Origin: Thermoprotei archaeon
GTDB taxonomy: Archaea; Thermoproteota; Thermoprotei; Gearchaeales; WAQG01
Direction: 5' to 3'
DNA: 64,000 nt
NCBI GenBank assembly: GCA_038881895.1
Contig: JAVZOV010000002.1
Coordinates: forward strand, 226,961-290,960
The stretch's first letter is position 1. Each line of letters opens with the position of its first letter. The notes under the pieces are model-generated. The model saw only the letters and a list, made by a program, of their open reading frames with translations. It did not search any database and had not been told where the DNA came from. Below are positions 6,741 through 47,772 of this stretch, piece by piece. The position numbers were made by a program, and so were the translations under genes.

Positions 6741-6764
6741 GAACTATTTGTAATATTCCTGATT

Positions 6765-27242: not shown

Positions 27243-27245
27243 AGC

Positions 27246-27767
27246 TTACGCCCAGCAAAATTCCTTATATGCACATCTTCTGCAATAGGGAATCCTGATC
27301 GGCGGCGGGGGGCGTTCCAGCCGAGCTATCTCCTTAATTTCGTTAAGGACTTTTAAGAGCACCTGTTCAGCTTCTGCATCTAGCTTCACACTTATCTTCC
27401 TCTTTTCGGTTGGGATAAGGATCCAGCCATCAGCATCAACATCGTACTCCTTAAGTCTGAAAAGGTAGTAGAGGAGTTGAAAACGTGCTGCTTCAATAAA
27501 TTTCGAGGATGCTTTTATCTCGCACGCCGCTCTTTCGGCTCTTTTGAATAAATCGATCTTTATGCCCTCCAAGGATACTTCCTTTAGCATCCTACGGTAG
27601 AAGATCTCATGAATCGCCCTCCCAATATCTAAAGCCGACGCGTCTTCGTCAGGGGTTATTTCGTGGCTCATTAGCCAAACCTCGCGCTTACAGATGAAGT
27701 AATACCAAACAAGCGTGCCCGTAATCGGTTTGCTGGAGCAAAGGGTGTAGGGAAGATCGACTTGCAA
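27246..27767 (-). CDS. cas4: CRISPR adaptation nuclease Cas4
   Basis: RecB-like nuclease with a [4Fe-4S] cluster that trims prespacers and fixes PAM orientation. The first cluster Cys is in YFICKREVWL (about residue 27) and the last three are in YCRRCAYKEFCWA at the C-terminus; GRAIHEIF holds the RecB His and the DADGWILIPTEKRK segment the acidic and Lys residues. Length 173 is normal for type I-B. It lies between cas3 and cas1. Confidence 0.93.
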   Translation of the reverse strand: MQVDLPYTLCSSKPITGTLVWYYFICKREVWLMSHEITPDEDASALDIGRAIHEIFYRRMLKEVSLEGIKIDLFKRAERAACEIKASSKFIEAARFQLLYYLFRLKEYDVDADGWILIPTEKRKISVKLDAEAEQVLLKVLNEIKEIARLERPPPPIRIPYCRRCAYKEFCWA

Positions 27768-27784
27768 TACAATACCACCTCATG

Positions 27785-30962: not shown

Positions 30963-31913
30963 TCACGTTCTCTCTATAACGGCTTTTATTTCTGCGTCAG
31001 TTAATTCATGTGGAAGTTTTGAGAACTTTTCAGGGCAGCAGCTTTTAACAGGTTTTTCAACGAAACTTAGTTCCTCACTTGTCCTCAAGTAAAGCTTGGA
31101 TATGACGTCCTTGTTCCGTTCTAGGTTGTTGACTAGCTCATTAAAGTTAATGTCCAAGTCTTTGAAATCTCTTATAGCTTCTCCCTTTTGATTAACCACA
31201 ATGAACCTGCGTAGGTCACCGAGAACAGTGTCAGCGTCTTTGTATTCTATCCGCATATAAAGATGTGGTCTCTCACCTATCTTGCTCCTCGTTGTTGGCT
31301 GAACCTCGAGGGCTTTCCAGATAAGATTGTCGAACACTTTCAAGTCGTTCTGAGACATCCCTGTTACTTTAGCTCTTCTGCCGCTTACAACGCCGTAAAA
31401 TCCAATTAGAGAATAGTAAACGCGCCAGTCCCTGCCTATTGTACCGTATTTTTCAACAGCCCCGGAAAAGACTGATGTTATTGCAGATGTGTCCATGACT
31501 TCAACCTTGTGGAATGAGAACCCCCATGTGAACTGAACTGGGCCTATAAATGATTTTGGTTTTTCTTTGATAGTCATGGTCGCTCCGAAAAGCCGCGCAT
31601 CTATACACCTCTCAAGCACTTTATGAAGACTCTCTTCGTCAAGATTTCTGAGAAGCATTTTAACTCTTTCTTCGGCTGTGACGTTTTCGCCCGCAATTTT
31701 AGTTACATAAACATAATTTTCGCCGAACTTTTCGACAATGTAATCTCGGAAGAACCTTTTCAGTCTAACATCAGTGACAAGGTTTATGTTTGTTTTTGGG
31801 TCGATCCTCGGCTTATTCTCTGCATCAGGATCGCCGTTTGGATTGCACATTTTCGCCTCGTATATTAACAGGATCTCACTGTTCGTAAGTCCCTCTTCCA
31901 TCTCATTTTTCAC
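30963..31913 (-). CDS. cas7: Cas7 (Csh2-type), Cascade backbone
   Basis: Backbone RAMP subunit that polymerises along the crRNA spacer. Csh2-family hallmarks are the opening SEILLIYEAKMCNPNGDPDAENKPR, where CNPNGDPD is diagnostic, followed by VTDVRLKRFFRDYI, and the central FGATMTIK region. Length 316 fits. It overlaps cas8b by 11 bases and directly abuts cas5. Confidence 0.95.
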   Translation of the reverse strand: MKNEMEEGLTNSEILLIYEAKMCNPNGDPDAENKPRIDPKTNINLVTDVRLKRFFRDYIVEKFGENYVYVTKIAGENVTAEERVKMLLRNLDEESLHKVLERCIDARLFGATMTIKEKPKSFIGPVQFTWGFSFHKVEVMDTSAITSVFSGAVEKYGTIGRDWRVYYSLIGFYGVVSGRRAKVTGMSQNDLKVFDNLIWKALEVQPTTRSKIGERPHLYMRIEYKDADTVLGDLRRFIVVNQKGEAIRDFKDLDINFNELVNNLERNKDVISKLYLRTSEELSFVEKPVKSCCPEKFSKLPHELTDAEIKAVIERT

Positions 31914-33750
31914 CTCCGCTCGTTATGGCTTGAAGAGTTACATACGCGTATCCGGAAAGTATGTAAAACACATTGTCTATTGGATTCTGAAGCGCTTCTA
32001 AATTTCTGTCTAACATTTTTTTCATGTATGCATATAATTCCTCATTATAGGTGTCTAGTAATCTGTAATTCTTTAACCCCTCATGCACAGAGGAAGCAAG
32101 ATATTTAACTCTTTCAACAGGCATTCCCTCGTATCTTATCTTATTGAGCACGGCTTTATTTTTATTATTTTTGTACTGTTCTATTCCTATTTTTCCTATA
32201 AGGACACCAAGCAAGAAAAGCGCTTTTTGCCACTCCGTATACTTCATCATTGAGAAGAATTTTTCAATTTTATCGTCGGGGATTTTGAGCGAATTTGTCC
32301 CGTTTTCTTGCTCCATTTCAATAGCCTCCTGCCACTCTTCAATAACATTGAGCTCCCTTAAAAGTTTTATTAACAAATTATACTTTAAAAGACCTCTGCA
32401 GAGTGATTCCTCGTCGCTCTTTTCAGTATTTATGTTGTATCCCCTAGTCTTATATCTGTTAATCCTAGCGAATAGAACAGCCCTGGAAATTATGTTTTCC
32501 CTTGGGTACATGGTTCTAGTGAGCATGGAATTAAACAGCTCTACTAAAGGTTTCCAGTCTATTTGCGTTGCTTTTTTTAAAGGAAATATTGAGGAAATAT
32601 TTTCGAACCCAATGTACCATTCCCTAGAGTACTCAGAAAACAATTCCGCTAATTCTTTTGAGATACTACTAGACAACTTAGCCAATTTCAACAGTTCCAT
32701 CATTGGAACATCTTGAATTAAATATTGAAAGGAGAAGTGTGATGAGGCTCGATATCCGAACAGCAAATTTAAAAAGACTAAGGGGAGGTTTTCGTCTTGC
32801 ATGAGATCTTCAACCTTTTCCAGTTTTTCAAAAGTATTCACTGCATTAAAAGCATCACTAATTTCTTGGGCGATGTTCTGGAGTATATCATAAGACATAC
32901 GTGTTTCCATGCCTCTCTCCACGATCCTGAATGTTCCGGGTATTAGGAAGAGATTTAACTCTTCACCAATTCTTGCAGTTAGCTTTCGTTCTATAAAGTT
33001 CATGCTCAACACAAGCTTTTTTTTGCAATCCGTACACACGGCATGAGCTTTTAACATGTTTTCGGGCTTTCTGCTTAACTCTGGCATAAAACCAGCCTTG
33101 TCAACGTTATAAATGATTAGTAGTGTCCCTTCTGGATAAGATGGGTTAGTTAGCACTTTCTTCTCTTCGCCGCAGATGTGGCATCTCCCAAGCTTCATAG
33201 GATAATCTTCGCTCTCATATTCGTACAATATATAGCGCAGGAATTTCCGGTAGCCTGGTTCTTTAACTAAGTCTAGTAGTTTTCCATCCTTCTTTATAGA
33301 TACTGTGTAGAGAGCATTGTTCTTAGGGCATTCTCTCTCGGAAAGTAAAGCTTCAAAATCTTGAAAGCTCTTTCCGCCTGAGAAAAATTTTTCCTTAACC
33401 TCGCTGAGAATACGCTCCAGTTTCCTTATGTCTTCATCATTTAATCTTTTTTTAGTAATTTCGCTGATTATCTGATCGATAGCCCACTTCTTGTTTTTTG
33501 GATCAAGCAAATATTTTGGATTATTGGTGGTCAGTACAAGTTGTGGCTTCATACCTATTGCATTACCAGTCCAGAGGAATTCTTTTGCTCTTTCTTGGTC
33601 ACATTCAATAGTGCAGTCATATTCCAACTTCCCACTGTCTAGGTCAAAAATAACCTTGACAAGCCGATCTTCTTTTTTAATCTTTTCAATGGGGAATTCT
33701 TCTCCCTGTGAAAGTAATATCTCGCCAATTTCCTTCAATGCACTAAGCAT
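31903..33750 (-). CDS. cas8b: Cas8b (Csh1-like), Cascade large subunit
   Basis: Predicted large subunit that reads the PAM and recruits Cas3. It is identified mainly by position between cas6 and cas7 and by the zinc-finger-like pair GRCHICGEE and AVCTDCKK (about residues 193-240), typical of Csh1/Cas8b. The 615 residues are otherwise divergent, as usual for Cas8. The C-terminal helical part likely includes the small-subunit function, since no separate cas11 is present. It shares one base with cas6 at 33750. Confidence 0.88.
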   Translation of the reverse strand: MLSALKEIGEILLSQGEEFPIEKIKKEDRLVKVIFDLDSGKLEYDCTIECDQERAKEFLWTGNAIGMKPQLVLTTNNPKYLLDPKNKKWAIDQIISEITKKRLNDEDIRKLERILSEVKEKFFSGGKSFQDFEALLSERECPKNNALYTVSIKKDGKLLDLVKEPGYRKFLRYILYEYESEDYPMKLGRCHICGEEKKVLTNPSYPEGTLLIIYNVDKAGFMPELSRKPENMLKAHAVCTDCKKKLVLSMNFIERKLTARIGEELNLFLIPGTFRIVERGMETRMSYDILQNIAQEISDAFNAVNTFEKLEKVEDLMQDENLPLVFLNLLFGYRASSHFSFQYLIQDVPMMELLKLAKLSSSISKELAELFSEYSREWYIGFENISSIFPLKKATQIDWKPLVELFNSMLTRTMYPRENIISRAVLFARINRYKTRGYNINTEKSDEESLCRGLLKYNLLIKLLRELNVIEEWQEAIEMEQENGTNSLKIPDDKIEKFFSMMKYTEWQKALFLLGVLIGKIGIEQYKNNKNKAVLNKIRYEGMPVERVKYLASSVHEGLKNYRLLDTYNEELYAYMKKMLDRNLEALQNPIDNVFYILSGYAYVTLQAITSGGEK

Positions 33751-34532
33751 TAAATCACCTCAAACATTCCAAAGCCTTGTGAATTTTTAGCACCGAGTCC
33801 TGTTTCGTATGCAGTCATAATGAGTGTTTTTGGGCCTTTTAAAAGGAAATGGCCTATCCAACCCTTCACAACTGTGTCCTTATACAAGGTTGTTACTTCT
33901 TTTACTCTTAATGGTTTAATTTTAATGTTGGATTTTATATTTTTGCCAGAAAGCAGATAATACTTTTTCTTTACGTTGGAATTGATGAGGGCTGAAAACT
34001 CCTTCTCATATGGTGAAAAATAATATGTCTTTTTCTTACCATCAGGAGTCATGAGTGTGCTATATACTGTTAAAGGGGAGAGCATGCGTATTCTTAACTG
34101 ACCGTTTTTTATAGTTGGCATAGCTGGAAAAGCCAAATCAACCACTCTAAGCATGTGTTTACCTAAAACCATGAAGCCCTTCTTCACAATTGTATTTGCT
34201 AAGTCTTCTATAAATTTTTTGATAGGAGAGGAAATGTGCAGAGTTATGTTGCCGTCGTAAATGAACAGCTTGTTCTTTTTGTCCAACATATAATGTCCTT
34301 CAAGCCTTGAGAACGTGAACATTTTAAACTGTCTCTTATTGAAAAGGAAGCCTTTGTCGTGTAGAAAAGTAGCTAATTCCCGCGAGATATTATGATAAAT
34401 AGTAGCCTGAATAAGGTAATTATAATTTGTAGGCAAAACTACTCGTCCATCTTCTTGGTCTCTAAGGGTTAATCGCATCCTCATAGATCCAATCATCTCC
34501 AACCATTTCACAAGAGTTCCTGGCCATCTCAT
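33750..34532 (-). CDS. cas6: Cas6 crRNA-processing endoribonuclease
   Basis: Cuts the array transcript within each repeat to leave an 8-base 5' tag. The Cas6 family pattern is present: MRLTL near the N-terminus, LPTNYNYLIQATIYHNIS, and the C-terminal Gly-rich loop GLGAKNSQGFGMFEV. First gene of the cas operon. The ORF starts at 34532, but family alignment favours the ATG at 34484 or 34478 (MRMRLTL). Length 242-260. Its two substrate repeats differ only in the first 8 bases (array 1 versus 2), consistent with a single Cas6 serving both. Confidence 0.92.
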   Translation of the reverse strand: MRWPGTLVKWLEMIGSMRMRLTLRDQEDGRVVLPTNYNYLIQATIYHNISRELATFLHDKGFLFNKRQFKMFTFSRLEGHYMLDKKNKLFIYDGNITLHISSPIKKFIEDLANTIVKKGFMVLGKHMLRVVDLAFPAMPTIKNGQLRIRMLSPLTVYSTLMTPDGKKKTYYFSPYEKEFSALINSNVKKKYYLLSGKNIKSNIKIKPLRVKEVTTLYKDTVVKGWIGHFLLKGPKTLIMTAYETGLGAKNSQGFGMFEVI

Positions 34533-34981
34533 TAGTCATTAAATTGGCTATCCTTTCTTCACACAAACATGAATCACCTTAATATGATTTTGTTTTAGCT
34601 AACATTTAAGCTTTGCTCTCTTTCTGAAAACAAGCGCGAATTTTCAGCTAAAATTTTAATAGAAAAAGAAACTTACGGTTGGCACAAGGAAGGTTTCCCA
34701 CTACATGAGGGTTTCACCGAACTTGCCAACATCAAACTTTTCCATGCTGTTCCTAAACCTGTTGCCCAAAAAGCCTAAAACCACCCGTAGGACGGCTAGA
34801 CAAACACCAGCACGACGGGGTTCTCAACAGCGGCTAACGTTAGGTTTTCAAACATTTCAGGTCAAATAAAATTTAAATAAAAGGGTTTAAAAAACTTTCC
34901 AGTTGGATGATGAGAAAATATCGCCGAAAGAAACTCTCCTTTCTCCCCTCGAAACATTTTAAATCCAACAGCAGCTTAACC
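34533..34981. other. Intergenic region with cas promoter and unrecognised coding-like relic
   Basis: A TATA-like CTTAAATG on the minus strand (34604-34611 in plus coordinates) is suitably placed for the cas6-cas2 operon. From about 34690 to 34850 base composition is GC-richer than its flanks and the minus strand has overlapping partial frames (for example FLGNRFRNSMEKFDVGKFG ending at a stop near 34700), which look like the decayed end of a gene. I do not recognise the family. The remaining 34860-34981 is AT-rich. Confidence 0.3.
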
Positions 34982-36928
34982 TTAACTTATATGCCCTATC
35001 ATTTTTTTGAATTCTTGATGAGCTTGTTTAATTTCCTCCACTGAAGCTTCGTCCTCTAGGGTGGTCACATCTCCCACGGGTATGTTTGAAACCACGGCCT
35101 TTAAGACCCGTCGCATAATTTTGCCGCTTCTCGTCTTCGGCAATTTTGAAACAAAATATATTTCGTCAGGTGTAGCAACGGGGCCTATTGTCTTTCTCAT
35201 GTGCTCCTTTAATTCTTCTCTAAGTTTCTCGCTTGGCACGTAGCCTTGCTTTAGGATTGCGAAAATAACGATACTTTCGCCCTTAATTTCGTGGGGTTTG
35301 CCTATTACGGCTGCTTCGGCGATTGCCGGGTGGGATATGACGGCGCTTTCTAATTCCATAGTTCCTAGCCTGTGGCCTGCTATTTTTAATACTTCGTCTG
35401 CCCTTCCGAGAAGCCAGAAGTAGCCATCCTCGTCTTTCATGCAATAGTCTCCAGTGTAGTACATGCCTGGAAATTTGGACCAGTATGTTTGTTTGTAGCG
35501 TTCTGGGTCTTTGTATAGGGTCATTAGCATGCCTGGCCAGGGCTTCTTTATTACGAGGTAGCCTCTTACGCCTGGGGGCGCTGGCTTGCCGCTTTCGTCA
35601 ACCACGTCGGCGTCTATGCCTGGTAGCGGGAATGTTGCTGATCCGGGTTTTAGGGGCACTAGCCCTATTCCTGGTGCGGGCGATATCATTACGCCTCCTG
35701 TTTCTGTTTGCCACCAAGTGTCTACTATTGGGCAGCGTTCTCCACCTATGTGCCTGAAGTACCAAAGCCATGCTTCGGGGTTTATAGGTTCGCCTACACT
35801 TCCAAGAATTGTTAGGCTGCTTAGGTCATGCTTTTTGGGCCATTCCTCGCCGTATCGCATGAACGTGCGTATGGCTGTTGGGGAAGTGTAAAATATTGTG
35901 ACCCTATATTTTTCGATTATTTCCCACCATCTGTCAGGTTTTGGGTAGTCGGGGGCTCCTTCATAAATCACTATCGATGCCCCATGCATTAACGGCGCGT
36001 AAACGATTAAGCTGTGCCCCGTCACCCAGCCAACATCAGCTGTACACCAGTAAACGCTGTCCTCCTTTATGTCAAAGACCCACTGATATATGGAGTTTAG
36101 GAACACCAAATATCCGCCAGTGCTGTGAACTATCCCCTTAGGCTTGCCGGTTGTGCCAGAAGTGTATAGAATGTAAAGTGGATGGGTGCTTTCAATGGGC
36201 AGTGGATCTATCCTTCCTTTTATGTCGTTTACAAGTTCGTGATACCAGAGATCTCTGCCTTCTTTCATTCTAACCTCTTGGCCTGTCCGCTTAACCACTA
36301 TAACTTTCTCCACAGACGGAGTATTTTCTAAAGCTGAGTCCGCTATTTCTTTTAGCTGAACAACTTTTCCTCTTCTGTAACCTCCATCAGCCGTGATCAA
36401 CACCTTTGCTTCTGTGTCGTTTATTCTGTCTGCTAACGCCATTGAACTAAATCCAGAAAAGATTACGGTGTGTATGGCCCCTATCCTCGCAGATGCCAAC
36501 ATGGCAATGGGTAATTCAGGAATCATGGGAAGATAAAGTGCTATTCTGTCGCCCTTTTTGACTCCAAGATTTTTGAGGGCTATTGCCAACTTGTTTATTT
36601 CCCTATAAAGTTGGGAATAGCTCAGGGTTCTCTCTTCACCATTCTCTCCTTCCCAGTAGATGGCAACCTTATTCCTTCTCCAAGTTTTCAGGTGTCTATC
36701 AACACACAGATACGATGCATTTATTAAACCCCCAGAAAACCATTTTGCAAAAGGTGGATCCCACTCAAGAACTTTATCCCATGTTCTAAACCATTCTAGC
36801 TTTCTCGCTTCCTTCTCCCAAAATTCTTCAATATTTTCTAACGATTCTTTGTAAATGTCTATGTATTGTCTTATTGGCCAGTACTTTAGCATGACAGGCA
36901 AGGATTCAAATTTATCTTTTTCAGCCAT
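34982..36928 (-). CDS. acs: Acetyl-CoA synthetase (AMP-forming) or related acyl-CoA synthetase
   Basis: Adenylate-forming ligase that activates acetate or a short acid to its CoA thioester. P-loop [11 protein letters not shown] is at 255-265; [38 protein letters not shown] and the C-terminal [11 protein letters not shown] (catalytic Lys) follow. Length 648 and the N-terminal ACAS extension match Acs. It forms an operon behind an acyl-CoA dehydrogenase (14 bases apart) and is probably controlled by the divergent ArsR protein. It is distinct from the ADP-forming system at 57-61 kb. Substrate may be longer or branched given the dehydrogenase partner. Confidence 0.93.
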
Positions 36929-36942
36929 TTACTATCCCTCAT

Positions 36943-38073
36943 TTATGCTAGGAGCAACTGTGCAACGAAGGATTTATGATAATCAGTGGGAAATCCCGCT
37001 ATGGTAAGTGCAAGGGCATCCCTCAAATGTCTTTGTAGCGGATAATCTTTTGTGATACCATACCCGCCGAATAATTGTAATGTCTCTTTTGAAACTTTTA
37101 CACAAGCTTCTGTTGCATACCACTTAGCCATTGAAGCAATCGTAGATGCCTTCGGGTCCCCTTCCTCAAGTAGTTCAGCTCCATAAAATGCCAGCTGCCT
37201 TGCAGCCTCAACCTCCAAAGCCATTTCCGCTATTTTCCACCCAACGCCTTGAAGCTTACTCATAGTTGAACCGAACATTTCCCGCTCCTTAACATGTTTA
37301 ATTGCCGCCTCAATTGATGCCCTAGCTATTCCAACGGCAAGCATGGTGTCAAGAATCAAAATAGAAAACAAGACCTTTAGCACTATATTTAAACCATTCC
37401 CCTCTTTGCCAATTTTGTTTGCTATATCAACAATGCAATTATCAAAATAGACAACCGCATTACCAATTGCTGTAGCGCCGATGAATTTATTAAGTGCCCC
37501 GACACTTAATCCAGGTGTGTTTCTATCCACCAAAAATAAAGTATAGCCCCCATCAGAACGCATCAGAACAATGAACGCGCGGACAACAGTTGCCAGCTCA
37601 GTAAAAATTTTCTGCACATTTATCACATACTTGTTTTCCTCCGCTTTCGTGCTCAAGGATAATTTTAAGAGGTCCGTTCCGCCTTCTGGTTCAGAATAGG
37701 AGAAAGCCATTAATTTTTCACCTCTGCAGATGGCTGGAAGATATTCATTTTTTTGTTCTTCTGTTCCCCCCTCCAACAGAATTGCACTGCACGCGTCTAA
37801 TATATGAATGATGAATGCGGTGTTAGAACATGCTCCAGCAACTTCCTCCCAAACGACACACGCATCGGTAAGGGTCAACTCTTGACCACCATACTTTTCA
37901 GGGACTCTTAAGCCTAATAGTCCATGTTCGGCTACCTTACTGATATTTTCTAAAGGGACCTGGTTTTGTTCGTCCCAATATGAAGCTTTGGGGACGAGTT
38001 CTTTCTCAACAAATTCCCGTATAGATTTTTGAAGCAAAACTTGCTTCTCATTTAAAAGAGTCATTATTAACAC
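36943..38073 (-). CDS. Acyl-CoA dehydrogenase family protein
   Basis: FAD-dependent dehydrogenase expected to introduce a 2,3 double bond in an acyl-CoA, giving electrons to ETF. Family landmarks are LRVPEKYGGQELTLTDAC, AFSYSEPEGGTD (usually TEPxaGSD), REMFGSTMSKLQGVGWKIAEM, and LQLFGGYGITKDYPLQRHLRDA. In the C-terminal loop where many members have IYEGT with the catalytic Glu, this protein reads TIAGFPTD, so Glu is absent there; the base could be elsewhere, as in isovaleryl- or long-chain enzymes. Length 376 is normal. ATG at 38073 or 38064. No ETF genes are in the window. Confidence 0.88.
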   Translation of the reverse strand: MLIMTLLNEKQVLLQKSIREFVEKELVPKASYWDEQNQVPLENISKVAEHGLLGLRVPEKYGGQELTLTDACVVWEEVAGACSNTAFIIHILDACSAILLEGGTEEQKNEYLPAICRGEKLMAFSYSEPEGGTDLLKLSLSTKAEENKYVINVQKIFTELATVVRAFIVLMRSDGGYTLFLVDRNTPGLSVGALNKFIGATAIGNAVVYFDNCIVDIANKIGKEGNGLNIVLKVLFSILILDTMLAVGIARASIEAAIKHVKEREMFGSTMSKLQGVGWKIAEMALEVEAARQLAFYGAELLEEGDPKASTIASMAKWYATEACVKVSKETLQLFGGYGITKDYPLQRHLRDALALTIAGFPTDYHKSFVAQLLLA

Positions 38074-38144
38074 CCCTTCTTGAATTATGTTTCATGTAGT
38101 ACTCATCCATAAATTTAAGCTTTTTGCGCAACATTTATAAAACG

Positions 38145-38162
38145 TATGAAAATATTTTCATA
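38145..38162. promoter_or_regulatory. Operator palindrome between acyl-CoA dehydrogenase and arsR-type gene
   Basis: TATGAAAATATTTTCATA is a perfect 18-base palindrome in the divergent promoter region. It lies between a plus-strand TATA-like TTTATAAAA (about 38134-38142) and the regulator's start, and roughly 70 bases from the acyl-CoA dehydrogenase ATG, with a minus-strand TATA candidate at about 38110-38119. A dimeric winged-helix ArsR protein could bind it and repress its own gene and possibly the operon. Confidence 0.6.
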
Positions 38163-38179
38163 TAACTAGGTTGAGAAAT

Positions 38180-38554
38180 ATGAAGCAATCCCTCGCTGAA
38201 ACTTGTTATATGTTTTTCTCGACATTGGCTAATCCTACAAGACTAGCCATACTGGAATTGTTGCGTGATGGTCCTAAGAACGTTACACAAATTGCAGAAG
38301 CTTTAAAACAGGAGCAGAGCATGATCTCACATAATTTAAAACTGCTATTAAGGTGTAGTTTTGTATTTTCAGAGCGTAGAAAAAAGGAGCGCATATACTA
38401 CCTAAACAAAGAAACCATGGAAAAACTTTTTAAATTATTTTCGCAGCACGCTGAGAAATATTGTCCAACAGGCGGAAAATGCCTCACAGATAAAGTTTTA
38501 AAGGAGCACAAAAAGAATGAAGCTTCACGACACATATATTCGAAGCGTTTCTAA
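38180..38554 (+). CDS. ArsR-family winged-helix regulator
   Basis: Dimeric winged-helix repressor with the HTH at about 18-75: FFSTLANPTRLAILELLRDGP, VTQIAEALKQEQSMISHNLKLLLRCSFV, then a wing with ERRKKERIYYL. A C-terminal extension contains C-x5-C (YCPTGGKC) that could sense a metal or redox state. The frame can start with TTG at 38171, but the ATG at 38180 is likelier. Divergent from the acyl-CoA dehydrogenase/acs operon with an 18-base palindrome between; control of that operon is inferred. Confidence 0.88.
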   Translation: MKQSLAETCYMFFSTLANPTRLAILELLRDGPKNVTQIAEALKQEQSMISHNLKLLLRCSFVFSERRKKERIYYLNKETMEKLFKLFSQHAEKYCPTGGKCLTDKVLKEHKKNEASRHIYSKRF

Positions 38555-38674
38555 ATAAGAGGGAAGGGATTAAGTGTCAGTGTTTTGACAAAATTTTAAA
38601 TATTACAATTGTAATAAATACTACATAGTAATAAGACGTGCCGCCTCAATGGAAAAACACTATAGGGAATGAAT

Positions 38675-39071
38675 ATGCTACCTCCTTGTGAAGTTGTTGT
38701 AAAATGCTTATTGCCACCAATTCGCTCCACAATCGCAAAAACTCTTATAACAAGGTATAATTTGGCACAGCATAAAGCGGCCGAACTCTTGGGAGTCGGT
38801 CAACCAACCATAAGTCTCTAATAGGAGAATGCGAGGCAAAGCCCTAAGCCTAGAAAACGACGCTGAAATCATGGAATTGATAGAAAATATCGCTAATGCC
38901 TTAACAAGGAGTGCCATTCCCTACAAAGACTTCATTCAAAAAATTTGCCCCATCTGCAAATTAGCACGTGCAAAGGGATTATTGTGCTCGATTCATAAAA
39001 GTTTGGTTCCAACGCTTTTGATTGAAAAATGCGAGTTATGTCTTGCATCGAATGAATTAGAGTGCTTATAA
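38675..39071 (+). pseudogene. Frameshifted HTH regulator with cysteine cluster
   Basis: The first part (ATG 38675 to about 38816) encodes an HTH region ending AAELLGVGQPTISL, then runs into TAA-TAG at 38817. One frame over, an 80-residue frame from ATG 38829 continues the same family: MRGKALSLENDAEIMELI and a C-terminal CPICKLARAKGLLC plus CELC. Comparing with the intact paralogue at 12214, the expected protein is continuous across the break (IS-x-x-x-RG), so a single indel near 38815 has split the gene. It could also be two cooperating short proteins, which seems less likely. Confidence 0.65.
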
Positions 39072-39305
39072 ATGCTTGGACAATATTTAATAACTTTTAG
39101 GGAAGCATTTGAGGCCGCCTTAATAACTACGACGATGTTATCTTACTTGGCGAGAAGCGGTAGACGTGTTTTATCGCGTTATGTTTGATTAGGCGCTGTT
39201 TCAGCGTTAATCGCCAGCGTAATATCGGGCATGTTTGCTTGGCTTGCATATGGTGCCCTTCCGAAAGACCTAAAGTTGCTTTTCAAAAAGTTTGGGTGTT
39301 TTTAA
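39072..39305 (+). pseudogene. Truncated FTR1-family iron permease
   Basis: Starting right after the stop of the preceding frame, MLGQYLITFREAFEAALI matches the FTR1 N-terminus with its RE-x-x-E-A motif (usually REGLEA), followed by a membrane segment and LARSGRRVLSRYV. TGA at 39186 then interrupts the frame, which continues LGAVSALIASVISGMFAWLAYG before a stop at 39303. Only the first two of about seven membrane segments remain. A nonsense codon plus loss of the 3' part make this a pseudogene. Adjacent to the broken Cys-type HTH gene, so the pair may once have been an iron-responsive unit. Confidence 0.6.
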
Positions 39306-39544
39306 TTCCAGATGTTGTTGCAGATTTAAAAGAAGCTGTAGTGATTGTGAAGAGATATGCAAAGCTAGCGCTTTTTGATTGATGATTATCTGATGATCAC
39401 ATTTGCAAGAAAATTTATGTAAATGCTTCTGTTGAAGGTTTGTCTATTTTTGTTGGTTATTGTTAACAGAGATCAGATGATAAAAATTTTTATTCTTTAA
39501 AGAATTTAAACATAATCTATTTATTGTGAGGTGTTTGGTGTTAT

Positions 39545-40402
39545 GTGGTGAGTGTCTTGGGTGGGCATGGGTTACGTCCGTCTTTGAACGTTGTTTTGAC
39601 GGGCCTTTGTGCTGCTTTATATGCTGTTGGTGCTTATGCTACGGCGTATATTCCATCTCCATGGGGTTTTGGGCAGTTTCGTCCAGCAGTTGTTATACCA
39701 GCTGTCTTTGCTGTCGTCTTTGGTCCTTGGGTTGGTGGTGTAGGGTCAGCCATTGGAACGTTGATTGCTGATTCTGCTAAGCATGGAACGCTTTATGTGG
39801 GTAGTCTTATTGCTGCTGTGCCTGGAAACTTTATCGGGTTTTTTATACTTGGCTACTTGATGAGGAAGAGGTTTAGCTGGGGAAGGTTCATTCTTGCATC
39901 AAACTTAACGCTTGTCATTGGAAATGTTATTGTGGCATTTTTATACATCTTCTTGTATAGGGTGCTTTACGCTCAGGCTTTACAAATGCCTGTTGAGTCG
40001 TTGGTGATGCTCTCCATCGGATTGACAATATACTGGTACGTAACGATGCTTCCATTCGTCCTTACAATCGCTCCTATTCTTATAAGGGCGGTTGCTGTAG
40101 CTTTCCCTGAAATGGTTTCTGAGGATATTAGGATTAATTCACTTAAAAAAGAAATTCCAAAGACAGAGTTTGGCTTTGCCTTAGCTATCCCAGGGATGCT
40201 TATACTATCGACGGGGATAGTGATTGCCTACACACCTTTTGGAAGCTATCTTGCAACGAGCTTTCCAAAAACTTTCACTCCGACAGTCATGGAACTCCTC
40301 CAGTTACTCTTTTATCTAAGTGGCGTAGCGCTCTTGATTCTGGGTTTAGCATCTCTAGGTGTGAAGTCCTTCTTAATTCGGAAAATGGCAAATAATTCTT
40401 AG
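39545..40402 (+). CDS. ECF transporter S component-like membrane protein
   Basis: Integral membrane protein with about seven hydrophobic segments. Residues about 12-150 resemble the substrate-binding S component of energy-coupling factor vitamin transporters: LTGLCAALYAVGAYAT, the QFRPAVVIPAVFAVVFGPWVGGVGSAIGTLIAD loop and PGNFIGFFILGYLM. An additional C-terminal part (about 200-285) adds two more membrane segments, making it longer than typical S proteins (~180). No ECF ATPase or T component is nearby, so it may use modules encoded elsewhere. The start is GTG at 39545 with GTGAGGTG upstream. Ligand unknown. Confidence 0.75.
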   Translation: MVSVLGGHGLRPSLNVVLTGLCAALYAVGAYATAYIPSPWGFGQFRPAVVIPAVFAVVFGPWVGGVGSAIGTLIADSAKHGTLYVGSLIAAVPGNFIGFFILGYLMRKRFSWGRFILASNLTLVIGNVIVAFLYIFLYRVLYAQALQMPVESLVMLSIGLTIYWYVTMLPFVLTIAPILIRAVAVAFPEMVSEDIRINSLKKEIPKTEFGFALAIPGMLILSTGIVIAYTPFGSYLATSFPKTFTPTVMELLQLLFYLSGVALLILGLASLGVKSFLIRKMANNS

Positions 40403-40767
40403 CAAAGTGTGGTATGATATGCGTTTATGTTTAAATACGCATTCACTAACTCGAGGTATGGTTCCTAATCATATTGATAGGAAGTTGATGTATTTGCATA
40501 TCCTTTGTGAGTTCAGGGTAAAATGCAATGCCAATTATTTTGCTATAAGTTTTTGGATTTAATCGATCAAATAAAATGGTTTCTATAGAATCTATTCGAA
40601 TTCAATGAGAACTTTTTTCATTCATGCAGAGTTATAAATTCTACACAAAATTAAATATTGCAATCTGAATTTACTCGGATTTAGAGTTGTAGCGTTTAAA
40701 ACGTGTTAAATAGAAGATGTTGAAGAAGTTTCTAGGGGTTATATTAAGAATTATGTTAAGGAAAAAC
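40403..40767. other. Intergenic region with one possible short ORF
   Basis: AT-rich. A TATA-like TTTAAATA (about 40430-40437) precedes an ATG at 40458 that opens a 34-codon frame to 40562 (begins MVPNHIDRKLMYLH); it has no recognisable family and may be chance. From about 40680 onward the sequence may include more decayed cas DNA, but only the part from 40768 can be aligned to cas2. Confidence 0.2.
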
Positions 40768-40842
40768 CATACTTCGAACAACAGCATATATGAAAAAGAA
40801 AACCTTGGAATAATAAAAGGGAGAAGAACAACAATAATATAA
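40768..40842 (+). pseudogene. Relic of the cas2 3' end
   Basis: Reads ILRTTAYMKK, then after a one-base deletion NLGIIKG and TTII-stop at 40840, matching the C-terminus of the intact Cas2 at 25984-26259 (ILRTTAYLKKENLGVIKGESTTII). DNA identity is also high (for example ACAATAATATAAA at the stop). It is directly followed by a leader and array in the same order as at array 1, only on the opposite strand. Confidence 0.75.
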
Positions 40843-40969
40843 AACTCCTATATAAAACTCCTAACCGTCGATCAAACATTATTAGGTTCTAATCCTAAAT
40901 CGACGGGAATTATCACAGAAAAGCCACAAAAAAACTATAAAACAGAAAATAATCAATTTCACCTTGGCA
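40843..40969 (+). promoter_or_regulatory. Leader of CRISPR array 2, homologous to leader 1
   Basis: Contains CTAACCGTCGATCAAACAT, the matching arm ATCGACGG (40899-40906) and ATCACAGAAAAGCCACAAAA, which align with CTAACAGTCGATCAAACAT, GATCGACAGG and ATCACCGAAAAAGCCGCAAAA of leader 1. The inverted repeat CCGTCGAT...ATCGACGG spans 40865-40906. It is about 38 bases longer than leader 1 before the first (degenerate) repeat. Confidence 0.75.
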
Positions 40970-42128
40970 CCACGAGAATACCTATATAAGGATTTAAACA
41001 CATTATAAATCTTGATTACACCGTTCAGCTGAGCAGGGGTTTTAAGAATACCTATAAGGGCTTGAAACTCAAAAAGAAAACTAGTTGTTAAAAATCCAAC
41101 TACAGTTTTAAGAATACCTATAAGGGCTTGAAACCCTTCTTTTATTTCATGAGCATTAGCGACAAGCTCAGTTTTAAGAATACCTATAAGGGCTTGAAAC
41201 TTCCTACTGGCACCCAGCTCATTTTTCTTCACTTTTGTTTTAAGAATACCTATAAGGGCTTGAAACCGGTTGCACTGACGATCGTTCCCGCAGGTGCTGA
41301 TGGTTTTAAGAATACCTATAAGGGCTTGAAACTATAGATCCTAAAACATATATAGTGTGGTGGTGAAAGTTTTAAGAATACCTATAAGGGCTTGAAACCG
41401 TCTTTATACCAATTGAGAAGTGGCTGTATACTGCGTTTTAAGAATACCTATAAGGGCTTGAAACCATAAAAACGTATAAAAAACCAAAAATAAAAAATGA
41501 GTTTTAAGAATACCTATAAGGGCTTGAAACCATTTGGGTTATCCTCATGCGTAAATTGATATCCAAGTTTTAAGAATACCTATAAGGGCTTGAAACGAAA
41601 AGTTGAAAGGTGATGAAAAATGAAAAATAAAAGTTTTAAGAATACCTATAAGGGCTTGAAACGATTTATGATGGTTGCGGGCAGTAAAGAATCGATCGGG
41701 TTTTAAGAATACCTATAAGGGCTTGAAACCTCGATTACCTTGTTAATATACTCATCACTAAAATTAGTTTTAAGAATACCTATAAGGGCTTGAAACGCAC
41801 ATTTCAATAGAAGCCTGCCAAAAGTCGGTATTGGTTTTAAGAATACCTATAAGGGCTTGAAACGATATATTCCAAGTTGTTCTCGCTGTTTTGCGATTTG
41901 TTTTAAGAATACCTATAAGGGCTTGAAACGGTATCGAACTTCTCAAAGATGCAGGTTATGACATAGTTTTAAGAATACCTATAAGGGCTTGAAACCAGTT
42001 ACAGCATACGTGAAGTTCAGAAAGTTCACATGTTTTAAGAATACCTATAAGGGCTTGAAACACAATAATTCATAATCATATTTCGCTTTATTGTAAGCGT
42101 TTTATACATCCTACAAGTTCACAGTTTA
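40970..42128 (+). CRISPR. CRISPR array 2: 16 intact repeats plus degenerate repeats at both ends
   Basis: Sixteen 30-base repeats (41039-42061) begin GTTTTAAGAATACC and end TATAAGGGCTTGAAAC on the plus strand; spacers are 36-37 bases. They equal array 1 repeats in transcript sense except at positions 4-7. A degenerate repeat (about 40970-40999, GAGAATACCTATATAAGG then ATTTAAAC) stands at the leader side with a 39-base spacer, and a decayed terminal repeat (from 42099, GTTTTATACATCCTACAAG) follows a 37-base spacer at the far end. No functional cas gene is adjacent; the I-B proteins of array 1 presumably process it. Confidence 0.96.
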
Positions 42129-43124: not shown

Positions 43125-43722
43125 ACGGAAGGCTCCAACGTTTTGGCTGAAGCTAGGAATATCCTTAAACCTCCTCTATACTCATTGATTGCCCTATAGA
43201 TCCCATTGGGAAACTCGATAGTTTTTTAACCATCAGCAAGCACCACAAATAAACCATCACAACTTTAGGTATTTAAATCTTATTTTCAGATTTCCTTAAA
43301 TTCTGAAAACAATTATTAACGGAAAAAGCCAGTTTTGGACTGTTTAAAATAGAAAAAGAAGGGGGATTGAGCTCGGCGAACTCATACTCAAACAGGACAG
43401 TCTCATAGTTACTGTTAGAAAAGAGGTGGAGCTAAATCATACTTTATGAGAGTTCTTTTATGCCAGTCTATGATTCTTGAAAACTTAAATTTAAAGCGTT
43501 CTATTAGTCGCTGCTAAGAGAGAAGCGACGAGCAGTTGTCAATTCACTTAGACGTTATTAATGGAAAAGGTGGCATTGCAAATTTTTTAACGTTGCAAGT
43601 TTTGCCTTGGAATTGAGTTCCATTATTAGTTGCAAAAGCTTTATATACTTAAAAAAAAAAAAAAAGAATCTTAAGGTCGGAGGTGAGGTTAAACCTCTTA
43701 AGTTTAATGGAGGTGTGTATGA
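43125..43722. other. Intergenic region with gene relic, hairpin and promoter
   Basis: No complete gene. At 43351-43449 the plus strand reads GIELGELILKQDSLIVTVRK and EVELNHTL then a stop, with a TAA just upstream and no start, so it looks like the last third of a lost small gene that I do not recognise. A hairpin GTCGCT...AGCGAC is at 43507-43529. A 15-base poly-A run (43651-43665) and GAGGT-TAA-ACCTC hairpin (43685-43697) lie in the 5' leader of the next gene. Confidence 0.35.
43634..43649 (+). promoter_or_regulatory. BRE/TATA promoter of the Cys-rich precursor gene
   Basis: AAAAGC followed by TTATATACT (43641-43649) is a good archaeal BRE-TATA pair; transcription would start near 43671, giving a leader of about 50 bases with GGAGGTG as ribosome site just before the ATG at 43723. 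The strength of both elements suggests good expression. Confidence 0.55.
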
Positions 43723-45078
43723 ATGAAGGCCTATTCTGTTTTGGAGATGCGTAGTCAGAGGTTGATTGCTGTTGGTCTTGTCACTGTGCTTTTGATTGCT
43801 TTCGTTGCGGTGCCCGCAGCCTTTACTGAAACGTCTGGGGCTGGAGCTTATGAGAACATAAGTGTTGATACGGCTTACAACATGATAAAGAAGAAACAAG
43901 TAAGCCTTGTTTTGGATGTTAGAAACCAGAGCGAATATAATCTGGGGCATTTATATGGTGCTGTTCTCATACCAGTTTACGAGCTTGAAGATAGAATAAG
44001 CGAAATACAGAAGCATATGAACGATCCAATAATAGTTTACAGTAAATCAGGATACAGAAGCCAGACAGCATGTGAAATTCTCGTTAACCACGGCTTTACA
44101 AAAGTCTACAACATGCTTGGCGGAATAACGGCTTGGATGGAAGCAGGATACCCAATCTATACAACTTACCACTACATCACAGTAGGCATAGTCAACAAAG
44201 AAATCCTATTGCAAATAGACCCACTACTATTGCATCAGACCGTTTGCACGTCATGCGGTTGCCAATCATGCCCTAAAAACCAAACATGCCAAAGCACTAA
44301 CGCTCCATCAAATATTACAGTTACCACAATAGAACAGAACGAAAGCGTCACAATAAAACTGATAACGTTTAAAGTGAATGGCACAACCTACGAAGTAACA
44401 GTCACCCAAACTTTGCTGTGGAGTTATAACGAACTTACAGATAAAATTAACAGAACAGCCAGATTTGTTTCAACGGAAATCGCTGCGCAGAACATGTCCA
44501 TGCAATTCTACAGCCTCAGCTACATAGTGCGGCATAAAGAATACAACCTAACCGTGCTAACAACGCTTACACCGCGAGACTCGGAAACCTACAACAGCTC
44601 ATTTACAGTTATTAACTATGCGCCTGCAGGCAAATCTGAAATCGTATCACTGGAGTTTGTGAAGTTTAATTCTTCCGTTACTTTATCGCAGCAATACGCC
44701 ATCTTAGGCAAAGTCGCCAAGGAAATAGGTAAAATCTACGAGAAGAGCGGAGACGAAAACCTTGCACAGCTTGCGCAAAGCTACTACACTATGGAGAAAG
44801 AAGCCAAATATCTGTCTAGGCTGGTAGGAAAACAACTACAAGAATATGATAGAGAAATCCTCAAAAGCTCCGCAGTCTTGATGGACGACTTCTGGTGTGA
44901 TCTTTACTGTCAAATCGCTTGTTATGCTGCTTATGCGGTGATAGTAGCGGCATGCATTTATGGTGGCGTTGTAACTTACGGTGGTTTATTGGTAGCTTGT
45001 TTATACCTGTTAACTGAGGGATGGGACTATTGGGAGTACTTTTGTGACATAGTGTGCTATCTCATTTGTGGCGGGTGA
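43723..45078 (+). CDS. Secreted rhodanese-like precursor with C-terminal Cys-rich (halocin C8-like) domain
   Basis: Residues 1-40 form a Sec signal peptide (hydrophobic core LIAVGLVTVLLIAFVAV). A rhodanese-like domain follows (about 46-147, LVLDVRNQSEYNLGHLYGA), but the active loop reads IVYSKSGYRS, so the catalytic Cys is Ser107 and sulfurtransfer is unlikely. After a CTSCGCQSC segment (175-183) comes a Thr/Asn-rich region; 11 N-glycosylation sequons imply an extracellular location. Residues ~380-451 are hydrophobic and hold eight Cys (392, 396, 400, 411, 426, 441, 445, 449). Long N-terminal domain plus ~70-residue Cys-rich tail is the plan of the halocin C8 precursor, so the tail may be a released antimicrobial peptide and the front part immunity or carrier. 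Inference, not proof. Confidence 0.6.
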   Translation: MKAYSVLEMRSQRLIAVGLVTVLLIAFVAVPAAFTETSGAGAYENISVDTAYNMIKKKQVSLVLDVRNQSEYNLGHLYGAVLIPVYELEDRISEIQKHMNDPIIVYSKSGYRSQTACEILVNHGFTKVYNMLGGITAWMEAGYPIYTTYHYITVGIVNKEILLQIDPLLLHQTVCTSCGCQSCPKNQTCQSTNAPSNITVTTIEQNESVTIKLITFKVNGTTYEVTVTQTLLWSYNELTDKINRTARFVSTEIAAQNMSMQFYSLSYIVRHKEYNLTVLTTLTPRDSETYNSSFTVINYAPAGKSEIVSLEFVKFNSSVTLSQQYAILGKVAKEIGKIYEKSGDENLAQLAQSYYTMEKEAKYLSRLVGKQLQEYDREILKSSAVLMDDFWCDLYCQIACYAAYAVIVAACIYGGVVTYGGLLVACLYLLTEGWDYWEYFCDIVCYLICGG

Positions 45079-45191
45079 CGACCTTTTAGACATATTACTG
45101 CAACCTCTGAGAAGGTGGGCTTAAGTTGCTATGTCTGAAACATGCACATAACCTTTTTATTTTTTACTTAAACAATATAGGTGAGGGTAAG

Positions 45192-45590
45192 ATGGGAAAG
45201 CCTAATTACTGGAAAGCTCGAATTCTGTTCTACAGTCTAATCGCTCTAACTTTCTGTGTCATAATTTCGTGGGTGGGGTATATGACTGGCTATGTTCCTC
45301 TCCAAACAGCTGTCAAATTCTCAGCCATCGCGTTGTTGCTCGTAGGTTCAACTTACGCTCTCCGACGTTTCGTTTGGACCTCTCCCCGAAGATGGCAGAT
45401 TACCCGTCGAGTTATCTTCATCTTCTGCGGCATTGTCTGGATCGGTTGGTTTTTATGGGGAGTTTCCGTGATTGCCCTAAGGCATGTGTTCGGTTTAAGT
45501 GCAGATACCTCAGCATTCTTGGCGTTACCCTGTTACTTACTGGGAGCCTACCTTGGAGACAAACTGGAGAAGCGCACTCGCCATTCTTGA
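45192..45590 (+). CDS. Four-helix membrane protein of the peptide cluster (upstream part)
   Basis: Unrecognised membrane protein with four hydrophobic segments (SLIALTFCVIISWVGYM, a second at about 38-56, VIFIFCGIVWIGWFLWGV and FLALPCYLLGAYLG in the protein counted from 45192). ATG at 45192 follows GGTGAGGGTAA, a good ribosome site; the frame is open from 45126 but that start lacks one. The stop is TGA at 45588, and the same frame continues at once into another membrane segment and the next ORF, so this may be the front of one split protein. Position after the precursor gene suggests immunity or export. Confidence 0.55.
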   Translation: MGKPNYWKARILFYSLIALTFCVIISWVGYMTGYVPLQTAVKFSAIALLLVGSTYALRRFVWTSPRRWQITRRVIFIFCGIVWIGWFLWGVSVIALRHVFGLSADTSAFLALPCYLLGAYLGDKLEKRTRHS

Positions 45591-45992
45591 CCAAGCCTCC
45601 TCTTAGCCTTTATTCTTCTCGTTGTGGGAGGTTTGGCATGTATTGCTATGTTACCGAGAGCAGTGACTATTCAAAAGCGAGAGATGGATGAGCAACTGTC
45701 CAAGGCGATAGAAGAGACTGATTTTTCAGAGCCATTGAGGTTAAAAGACTTTCTGAAATGGAAGAGTTGGCTAAAGCTTGCACGTAAATGGGGAGCCTGG
45801 AAGACCGCAAGCACCTGCTCCATCCTTGGAGCAGCCATCATTGCAGGGGTATCCTATATCGTCCTAAGTGCATTTAACATGATGAACATGCTGCTCGTTG
45901 CGGGCTATACAGCTTCTGCAACAATTATCATCTTTATTTTCTTCCATCGCCAAATCAGCAAAGCTTTAAAAGAGACCAAGCAAAGTCTATAG
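45591..45992 (+). CDS. Membrane protein of the peptide cluster (downstream part, same frame)
   Basis: Read in the same frame as the preceding ORF directly after its TGA: PSLLLAFILLVVGGLACIAML is a membrane segment, followed by a charged stretch (QKREMDEQLSKAIEE and KWKSWLKLARKW) and two more hydrophobic segments near the C-terminus. The first usable start is GTG at 45624, which would cut the first membrane helix in two. Together the two frames would give about 265 residues with seven segments. Either a nonsense mutation split an old gene, or two subunits are made. No family recognised. Confidence 0.45.
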   Translation, partial: PSLLLAFILLVVGGLACIAMLPRAVTIQKREMDEQLSKAIEETDFSEPLRLKDFLKWKSWLKLARKWGAWKTASTCSILGAAIIAGVSYIVLSAFNMMNMLLVAGYTASATIIIFIFFHRQISKALKETKQSL

Positions 45993-46224
45993 AAATTCAG
46001 CTATTTTCTTTTAGCGTCTCCTAATAGAACATTTTATGCTAAAAGAGTTATTACATTAATAGAATATGCTCAAAAAGTTTGTAAATTACGGAATAATCGT
46101 GAAACTTCTTATGGGTGATGCGAGGTGATTAGGAACAAAAAGGTTAAAGGTTAAGTCCGTTCCAATTGACTTTAAATAACGCCGTTTAAATTTGCTTAGA
46201 GCGGTTTAACAGTTTTCTTTATGC

Positions 46225-46545
46225 TTAACGGCTATGTATATAAAGGCTAATAGGCAACCTACACTTGAAATGAAACATGCTATTCCATACGGACGGAAGC
46301 AAGGGATGCGGGACCTTAATTTCTTCATATATACCGACCCATGCTTCATAAGGCAAACTTAGACCTTGATCAAGTTTGAATGGAACTACAAGATAATATG
46401 TTCCGGGCTTAAATATCCAACTGTTCACTCTTTGCCCATCAGACGTTTCAAAATACTCGACGTAAAATGTAAATGCATAACCCCTAGGGGGCACACCCAC
46501 ATCTGCGTAGACATGCCCTTCTATTGTAACGTTGAAATCCTTGAT
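46225..46545 (-). pseudogene. Coding-like fragment of an unknown beta-rich protein, opposite strand
   Basis: The minus strand from a TGA near 46546 to 46225 reads a protein-like sequence without start: FNVTIEGHVYADVGVPPRG, FTFYVEYFETSDGQRVNSW, FKPGTYYLVVPFKLDQGL and AWVGIYEEIKVPHP. Alternating hydrophobic residues suggest an extracellular beta-sandwich. The first 91 codons are open from GTG at 46500. The fragment ends exactly where homology of the plus-strand peptide gene begins, pointing to a rearrangement junction near 46530. Family not recognised. Confidence 0.4.
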
Positions 46546-46791
46546 AGCTCAGCCATCCTGATGGATCAAATTGAATGCGCGCTTTCCTGTCTGTTCTGTG
46601 CCTTAAATGCAGGGATAGTTATCTCGAGTTGCTGGCCATGTTTCTTCCCTTGTGCATTCATTTTCACATTGTGGACTTGTGCACTGTGCCTATTAACTTA
46701 CTGCATAATATCAAGCATTCCTCAAATCATAGTCTTCGCCGAGACTATATATGACTGCTGGGTGTGCGCGCACTGTTTAGGCTATCTCTAA
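46513..46791 (+). CDS. Second Cys-rich halocin C8-like peptide, pro-region missing
   Basis: From ATG 46513 the frame encodes MPFYCNVEILDSSAILMD, then a hydrophobic region with 12 cysteines (C-x3-C-x2-C, SSCWPCFFPC, CALCLLTYC, and a final YDCWVCAHC). EILDSSAILMD matches EILKSSAVLMD at the start of the Cys-rich domain of the 451-residue precursor, and both end about 70 residues later. No signal peptide or rhodanese part precedes it; the frame is open back to 46366 but that stretch is antisense to another coding-like fragment. It may be a relic, or be expressed as a short peptide. No ribosome site is seen. Confidence 0.45.
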   Translation: MPFYCNVEILDSSAILMDQIECALSCLFCALNAGIVISSCWPCFFPCAFIFTLWTCALCLLTYCIISSIPQIIVFAETIYDCWVCAHCLGYL

Positions 46792-46856
46792 CCTTTGCTT
46801 AAAAATCGAAAGGCTTATTTCTTTTTTTATCTTTTTACACATCAGGGGGATAACGT

Positions 46857-47054
46857 ATGGATGTTGTCAGTGATAGGAAAGACTTGATCAAATTGTTAGT
46901 CGTCACCGTGGGCACAGGAATAATTTCATATTGGGCTTTTACACGACAGGAAATAATTGCCTCCATAGTAGGCGCTTTTCTTTGCGTTGCCGGCATTGGC
47001 GTCTTTCTATATACAGTTATGACACTTACTCGAAAAAGAAAACTGCAAGAGTAG
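46857..47054 (+). CDS. Small two-helix membrane protein
   Basis: Sixty-five residues with two membrane segments (LIKLLVVTVGTGIISYWAF and IIASIVGAFLCVAGIGVFLYT) and a basic tail TRKRKLQE. A clear ribosome site, AGGGGGAT, precedes the ATG at 46857, which argues that it is a real gene. Lies 65 bases after the second Cys-rich peptide. Size and topology are like bacteriocin immunity proteins, but this is inferred from position only. Confidence 0.55.
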   Translation: MDVVSDRKDLIKLLVVTVGTGIISYWAFTRQEIIASIVGAFLCVAGIGVFLYTVMTLTRKRKLQE

Positions 47055-47107
47055 AACAGAAAAAAGAAGATGGTTAGAGAAGAAATCGTGTTTGGGGGGA
47101 AATATAT

Positions 47108-47428
47108 ATGGAATTGCTTGAGGCGTTGGTTCTATCTTTCATCGGCACGATGATAGTGACCCCTTTATACGTAATTCAGGTTAAAAGAATTAGAAAAGTT
47201 AAGGTTTACGATCCATTTTTTTATAAACTGGATGAGTCAGGAGCCCTAAAAGAAGTGACGGCAGAATCCATTCCAGAGGAGCTTATTGAGGCACTTCGAC
47301 AAAAGGTGCTGAGTGAATTTAAACCTCCCAGTAAAACTAGGCAAATGTTACCCATCATAATCTTCGCTTTAGCAATCTTTATAATATATATGATAATCTT
47401 GCTAAGTATATTTGGGATCTCTACTTAG
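47108..47428 (+). CDS. Small membrane protein with internal soluble loop
   Basis: One hundred and six residues: a membrane segment at about 5-24 (ALVLSFIGTMIVTPLYVI), a charged loop of about 55 residues (KRIRKVKVYDPFF to FKPPSKTRQ), and a second segment MLPIIIFALAIFIIYMIILL. GGGGGG precedes the ATG at 47108 as ribosome site. It follows the 65-residue protein by 53 bases and likely shares its transcript. No family recognised; an accessory or immunity role in the Cys-rich peptide cluster is possible. Confidence 0.6.
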   Translation: MELLEALVLSFIGTMIVTPLYVIQVKRIRKVKVYDPFFYKLDESGALKEVTAESIPEELIEALRQKVLSEFKPPSKTRQMLPIIIFALAIFIIYMIILLSIFGIST

Positions 47429-47666: not shown

Positions 47667-47772
47667 GTGGGCCGGGCCGGACTTGAACCGGCGACCACCA
47701 CCGTGTCAGGGTGGCATCCTACCAATCTAGACGACCGTTCTGTGCTATTAAGCAGCCCAGGATTGCCCGACC
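47667..47772 (-). tRNA. tRNA-Val (GAC) with ~32-base intron in the acceptor region
   Basis: On the minus strand, GGGTCGG (47772-47766) pairs with CCGGCCC (47674-47668) as acceptor stem. A 32-base insertion (about 47765-47734) follows, then TCGTCTAG and the rest of a normal tRNA: anticodon stem-loop CCACC-CTGACAC-GGTGG (GAC) and T-arm GCCGG-TTCAAGT-CCGGC. Removing the insertion gives a 74-base tRNA. A GG doublet at both borders leaves the exact junction uncertain between positions 5/6 and 7/8. A hairpin TGCT-TAAT-AGCA lies inside the intron. Discriminator A; no CCA encoded. Confidence 0.85.

Follow-up and report, generated by a model that had tools for sequence, protein, structure and literature searches.

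A 64,000-nucleotide stretch of a Thermoprotei archaeon genome ("the window"; contig JAVZOV010000002.1 of assembly GCA_038881895.1, positions 226,961 to 290,960) carries, at 43723-45078 on the plus strand, a gene for a 451-amino-acid (aa) precursor protein that belongs to a family with a conserved "front" domain, exchangeable C-terminal tails, linked membrane proteins, orphan tail cassettes and a patchy spread. We consider it probable, judging from sequence comparisons, that this family is a polymorphic secreted toxin-immunity system, in which a membrane-active, usually disulfide-rich C-terminal peptide would be matched by membrane immunity proteins. A sequence-only reading of this DNA had proposed a secreted precursor with a C-terminal Cys-rich antimicrobial peptide; that core proposal fits well with the exchangeable tails, the orphan cassettes, the membrane partners, the patchiness and the codon composition described below.

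The precursor begins with a hydrophobic, signal-like N-terminus (read directly in the sequence), followed by a rhodanese domain (residues 48-140; 43864-44142, +; Pfam PF00581, 3.6e-18), the family-defining front domain (residues 143-391; 44149-44895, +; profiles A1 and A2), for which there was no database match, and a hydrophobic tail of about 60 residues (44893-45075, +), predicted to be a membrane-active peptide, with eight Cys in the last ~62 residues of the protein. Within the front domain lies a cysteine cluster, CTSCGCQSCPKNQTC (44245-44289, +), with a CxC/CxxC motif. The boundary between front and tail is EILKSSAVLMD (44854-44885, +), marked as the site of tail exchange by a DNA match to 46534-46565 and by the divergence of the tails beyond it. 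Thus the rhodanese-like front and the hydrophobic eight-Cys C-terminal domain that the sequence-only reading had described in a 451-residue protein are indeed there.

Beyond the boundary nothing is conserved family-wide; the tails group into types that are common to distant fronts: type I (an orphan tail in the window, L084, L088, L089 and L149), type II (L041, L090 and L092), type III (L082 and L085, grouped by eye), type IV (L078, L144, L079 and L147) and type V (L043, L143 and L080a). These types were named after the tails had been viewed and before the front tree was seen. Scored against 100 shuffles, with boundaries chosen by hand and among members that are not independent, the window precursor and L143 have fronts that are 76% identical and tails that are unrelated (z -0.1), and the window precursor and L078 have fronts that are 68% identical and a tail z of -0.5; L088 and L149, by comparison, have fronts only 28% identical and tails 50% identical (tail z 23.5), as L043 and L080a have fronts 43% and tails 52% identical (tail z 18.1). 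The window's own tail weakly resembles that of L144 (z 3.7). According to approximately unbiased (AU) tests on the front tree, the fronts that bear type I tails do not form one clade (monophyly rejected at p 1e-45), nor do those with type V tails (p 6.5e-4); the type I member L089 falls within a strongly supported group with type II members. The AU tests and the pairwise discordance together establish C-terminal exchange on a conserved carrier, as in polymorphic toxins; by these measures front and tail have different histories. Where the sequence-only reading had seen a likely processing boundary in EIL-x-SSA-[VI]-LMD, we prefer to see a recombination boundary, which may in addition be a cleavage site.

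Cys-richness is common in the tails and not the essence of the family, since six members (L093, L094 and L153-L156) have hydrophobic tails with two Cys or none; these six are also the weakest profile matches (24-43 bits). When split members are joined, the front CxC/CxxC motif is found in 27 of 30 members with Cys tails versus 0 of 6 with Cys-poor tails (Fisher p 4e-5, or 1.7e-4 when L156, with its incomplete front, is excluded). A rhodanese domain is present in only part of the family; we had considered it as the key to the family and rejected it, because many members lack it and the whole-protein plasmid matches are plain rhodaneses. Among the rhodanese-bearing members read, only the window copy has Ser (codon AGT) in place of the catalytic Cys in its active-site loop, IIVYSKSGYR; the others keep the Cys. 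That retained Cys, along with the CxC/CxxC motif in most Cys-tail fronts, would suit a membrane-anchored redox or sulfur-transfer protein with an extracellular rhodanese and CxxC front, a Cys tail serving as anchor or redox site and the membrane protein as complex partner. We think this improbable: the rhodanese is so often missing and its Cys is replaced in the window, and neither exchangeable tails with differing Cys spacing, sometimes nearly Cys-free, nor orphan tails without a front are what an anchor or redox site would lead one to expect.

Behind the tail there is usually a gene for a small membrane protein. Defining a partner as a same-strand open reading frame (ORF) that is 50-260 aa long, has two or more hydrophobic or transmembrane (TM) segments and starts no more than 150 base pairs (bp) from the tail, we found one in 25 of 33 members, whereas among the remaining long ORFs at these loci 15 of 173 had one (Fisher p 3e-15), and similarity between tails is correlated with similarity between partners (Mantel r 0.48, and 0.39 with front similarity removed; both p 2e-4). 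The stronger idea of a same-strand partner in every member was rejected, as 8 of the 33 lack one; these are mostly long forms with an extra C-terminal domain, and five of the eight have a helix-turn-helix (HTH) membrane protein nearby, in the other orientation or further away. The predicted immunity partner of the eight-Cys tail in the window is a 132-aa multi-TM protein (45192-45590, +) related to the downstream partners of L042 (BLASTP 5e-4; z 10.9) and L078 (z 7.7), as well as to the HTH-membrane protein adjoining L145 (E 2e-7); the partners of L079, L144 and L147 fall in the same group as those of the window, L042 and L078. Behind the L079 partner is a second, apparently frame-broken partner gene (6454-7013) resembling that of L042, which is likely an orphan immunity gene in decay.

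The loci L080, L086, L145, L148 and L152 encode a related membrane domain as a fusion with an ArsR-like HTH, and L146 combines the HTH with another membrane domain. HTH proteins of the DUF7347 type number 3-13 per genome; of the 13 members in six genomes, 6 have one no more than 2 kilobases (kb) away (~0.3 expected), those near members being mostly fused to a membrane domain. Regulators related to the partners and adjoining several members are what one would look for in peptide signalling, with the tail as a secreted pheromone and the membrane partner, sometimes HTH-fused, as receptor and regulator, and pheromone/receptor pairs likewise co-diversify. We rank this marginally below the redox protein, as another unlikely account: known pheromones do not resemble such long, strongly hydrophobic tails with many Cys, a DNA-binding or signalling domain is missing from the majority of partners, and signal-less orphan tails are typical of toxin loci. 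Nor does a regulator at the locus argue against a toxin, because in the SDP system of Bacillus subtilis the membrane immunity protein is encoded together with a repressor (PMC6818787).

The toxin-immunity reading draws further on orphan cassettes. At L092 a second, orphan tail (z 19.2 to the locus's own tail) is followed by a second partner (z 29.1), a duplication that corresponds to the orphan effector and immunity cassettes of polymorphic toxins. In the window, ORF 46366-46791 contains an orphan tail cassette (46534-46791, +) of type I, its type being common to L149 (z 6.6) and L084 (z 6.1). The likeness of this frame to the precursor starts at 46534 (tblastn of the precursor, E 0.006), at boundary DNA (GAAATCC...TGATGGA) in which 23 of 32 bases are identical between 44854-44885 and 46534-46565; 5' of that point the sequence has neither a front nor a signal peptide nor a convincing ribosome-binding site, and it runs antisense to an unrelated open-frame remnant (46225-46500, -) that is likely debris at the cassette junction. 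The sequence-only reading had seen here a second gene encoding a 12-Cys version of the precursor domain; the 12 Cys after EILDSSAILMD stand, and what they belong to is a tail only, not a full gene, since this tail starts abruptly at the shared boundary and has neither front nor signal peptide. Membrane genes follow, and a 65-aa membrane protein (46857-47054, +), weakly like the L153 partner (z 5.1), is by position and hydrophobicity a candidate partner of the orphan tail. Cys-rich frames alone can arise by chance (the wrong-frame ORF 39484-39768 has 13 Cys in 60 aa); the tails exceed chance because they recur in ~33 relatives and because the orphan tail shows the family likeness.

Those ~33 relatives of the front domain are patchily spread across Thermoproteota. 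Searching with the whole protein turned up a full-length relative each in G147 and G144 (the latter being Candidatus Bathyarchaeum tardum or a near-identical record), both in the phylum but outside the window's class, and a profile built from the front domain alone, with rhodanese and tail left out, had matches at E<=0.1 in 34 of the 398 Thermoproteota genomes searched, 20 of which reached 1e-4 or better. Front relatives were found in 12 of 91 genomes of one family, and in 6 of 81 genomes of the window's class, and the four further genomes from its order (G001-G004) had none, which is not the distribution of a single-copy core gene. Whole-genome profile searches were far more productive than a scan of the GTDB genome collection, which returned only two near-identical Bathyarchaeum records because a match to one conserved motif had been required. 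We rejected a viral origin, as a front-profile scan of viral contigs gave no relatives. A literature search found no description of the front family, and earlier archaeal surveys may list some members.

The locus sits between a CRISPR (clustered regularly interspaced short palindromic repeats) array and a valine transfer RNA gene, tRNA-Val (47667-47741). Long genes at ~26-45 kb have a G+C content at third codon positions (GC3) of 0.38-0.57 versus 0.20-0.30 for most others in the window, and this raised stretch ends close to tRNA-Val; foreign codon composition and patchy distribution fit the earlier placement of the locus in the variable part of the genome. In an empty-site comparison with same-order relatives the downstream aminopeptidase was 30-39% identical or absent. 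The window also holds a CRISPR-Cas locus (24000-42000), with cas genes from ~26 kb and arrays near 24.4-25.5 and 40.9-41.9 kb, and its GC3 is raised in the same way; because the elevation is common to both, it suggests that the CRISPR-Cas and toxin-like loci are one imported defence/conflict island ending at tRNA-Val.

Upstream of the precursor gene, inspection of the sequence finds a TATA-like element, tttatatact (43640-43649, +), and a Shine-Dalgarno-like GGAGGTG (43709-43715, +). Of the "three or four" small membrane proteins that had been seen around the two Cys-rich frames, four small hydrophobic ORFs are confirmed, all downstream of the precursor and on its strand: the 132-aa and 65-aa proteins already described, a 122-aa membrane protein (45624-45992, +) that is a possible second or orphan partner (E 2e-6 to the membrane protein adjoining L151; z 5.5 to the L149 partner), and a 106-aa membrane protein of no recognised family (47108-47428, +).

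The sequence-only reading had likened the locus to halocin C8, and of that plan the predicted secreted precursor, the Cys-rich C-terminal domain and the variable region fit the comparisons well, whereas the homology of tail and front does not hold. The halocin C8-type model TIGR04449 had no match at E<=10 in either window protein or in the relatives scanned, nor any in the window's genome (halocin C8 itself scores 61.5 bits); on a four-peptide halocin C8 profile, 93 of 200 and 103 of 200 shuffles score as high as the window tails, and two hhalign comparisons between the front profile and those of halocin C8-like precursors gave P 0.16 and 0.24. On these grounds we rejected homology of both parts. 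Both systems have an exported archaeal precursor (predicted as such here) and a Cys-rich hydrophobic C-terminal peptide, of ~76 aa in halocin C8, and many family tails also finish in G-[LW]-C or similar. Immunity to halocin C8 resides in HalI, the front of the precursor itself (PMC11509114); in the family described here a separate downstream membrane protein is the likelier immunity factor. Halocin C8 would therefore be the nearest archaeal parallel in the sense that the family "works like" it and not that it "is a" halocin C8, because neither tail nor front is detectably homologous. Two observations belong beside this comparison. On two haloarchaeal plasmids a conserved 68-aa TM gene lies 20-25 bp behind the halocin C8-like gene (L097 4304-4510; L098 4299-4505); it may be a distinct accessory or immunity gene, in a family whose immunity is usually attributed to the precursor itself. 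In genome G287, a weak Cys-poor front member (L093, 4725-5591) lies ~5 kb from L100 (1096-1761), whose product has a halocin C8-like domain (TIGR04449, above cut-off) and is followed by a membrane-protein gene.

By analogy, the nearest functional parallel is the SDP/YIT pair of B. subtilis, in which a secreted precursor (SdpC, YitM) has a hydrophobic C-terminal toxin domain wholly different between homologs, separate and mutually unrelated membrane proteins (SdpI, YitQ) give specific immunity, and a transcriptional regulator (SdpR) is adjacent (PMC6818787). A conserved precursor, an exchangeable hydrophobic C-terminal domain and an adjacent membrane protein are found in both; in contrast to SDP/YIT, the front here bears rhodanese and CxxC, Cys-rich tails predominate, and a single protein sometimes combines regulator and membrane domain. 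No NCBIfam SdpC match was found for precursors or tails and no Pfam SdpI match for the partners scanned, and no SdpA/SdpB-like genes were noticed at family loci. Polymorphic toxin systems (contact-dependent inhibition (CDI) systems, Rhs and relatives) likewise combine a conserved delivery part, an exchangeable C-terminal effector and an adjacent immunity gene, and a conserved boundary is where their orphan effector/immunity cassettes join (Zhang et al. 2012, PMC3482391). The constant carrier, exchanged tail, linked membrane protein and orphan cassettes are common to the family and to these systems, but theirs is a large delivery protein with an enzymatic toxin and here we see a small carrier, predicted to be secreted, with a membrane-active-looking peptide tail.

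VARTIG of the Thermococcales, as far as the part of its description drawn on here goes, is also a hypervariable archaeal locus, in which C-termini vary, some C-terminal genes stand as orphans and membrane proteins are associated (PMC8416519), and by that likeness the family would be a hypervariable surface recognition module, for self/non-self or adhesion, that releases no toxin. Some members do finish in an extra, weakly F5/8- or carbohydrate-binding-module-like domain beside the Cys region. VARTIG proteins, however, are surface proteins with immunoglobulin (Ig) domains, and that same part of the description mentions no Cys-rich hydrophobic tails (PMC8416519); the family has no Ig domains or sorting signals, and its variable part is mostly a short hydrophobic tail instead of an exposed domain, so that we hold a surface module to be the least likely of the three alternatives.

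Several findings weigh against a toxin-immunity system. No known bacteriocin matches in sequence, the adjoining genes showed no protease or exporter that recurs, and the AlphaFold model built from a two-row alignment was unusable (mean pLDDT, the predicted local distance difference test, of 36). The tail is not always terminal, since in several Bathyarchaeal members (L083, L145, L148, L150, L151 and L081) the Cys-rich region is followed by another domain, and these long forms need a different explanation for release. Partners that go with one and the same tail type are often too diverged to align (L088/L149 z 4.4; L043/L143 z 2.2), which makes the pairing of tails with partners a statistical one and not one-to-one. 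Finally, frames are broken or split in L041, L043, L085, L143 and L152, by decay or assembly error. In L143 (3837-5191) the tail is in a different frame, overlapping the end of the front's frame; front and tail there may be separate coupled products, or this may be an assembly frameshift.

If the family is a toxin-immunity system, we infer that the precursor would be exported and that its conserved front would carry and mature the C-terminal tail, with the CxC/CxxC cluster, plus the fused rhodanese in many members, plausibly aiding disulfide formation in the tail. The tail, of ~55-110 residues, hydrophobic and usually disulfide-rich, would be the membrane-active effector, cleaved and released or else presented to competitors, and the small multi-TM protein encoded downstream would shield the producer; in some Bathyarchaeia, the related membrane domain fused to an ArsR-like HTH could report the peptide. 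New specificities would come about by swapping the tail, or tail and partner, at an EIL-x-SSA-x-LMD-like boundary, leaving behind orphan cassettes such as 46534-46791.

To our knowledge, few archaeal peptide weapons are known, nearly all of them from haloarchaea; the members of this family come from Bathyarchaeia and further Thermoproteota that are mostly uncultured. We advance only tentatively, as a little more apt to fall than to stand, the broader view that it is an undescribed Thermoproteota-wide arsenal of polymorphic peptide toxins: a secreted carrier with CxC/CxxC and often a rhodanese as its disulfide or sulfur maturation front, interchangeable membrane-active tails, Cys-rich or Cys-free, acquired through recombination, and co-travelling membrane immunity proteins, some of which, fused to a DNA-binding domain, would unite immunity with sensing. 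If true, the family would provide a sequence rule (front by profile, then tail, then the gene behind) for mining archaeal peptides along with their antidotes, as well as a testable case of intramolecular aid to disulfide formation outside the cell.

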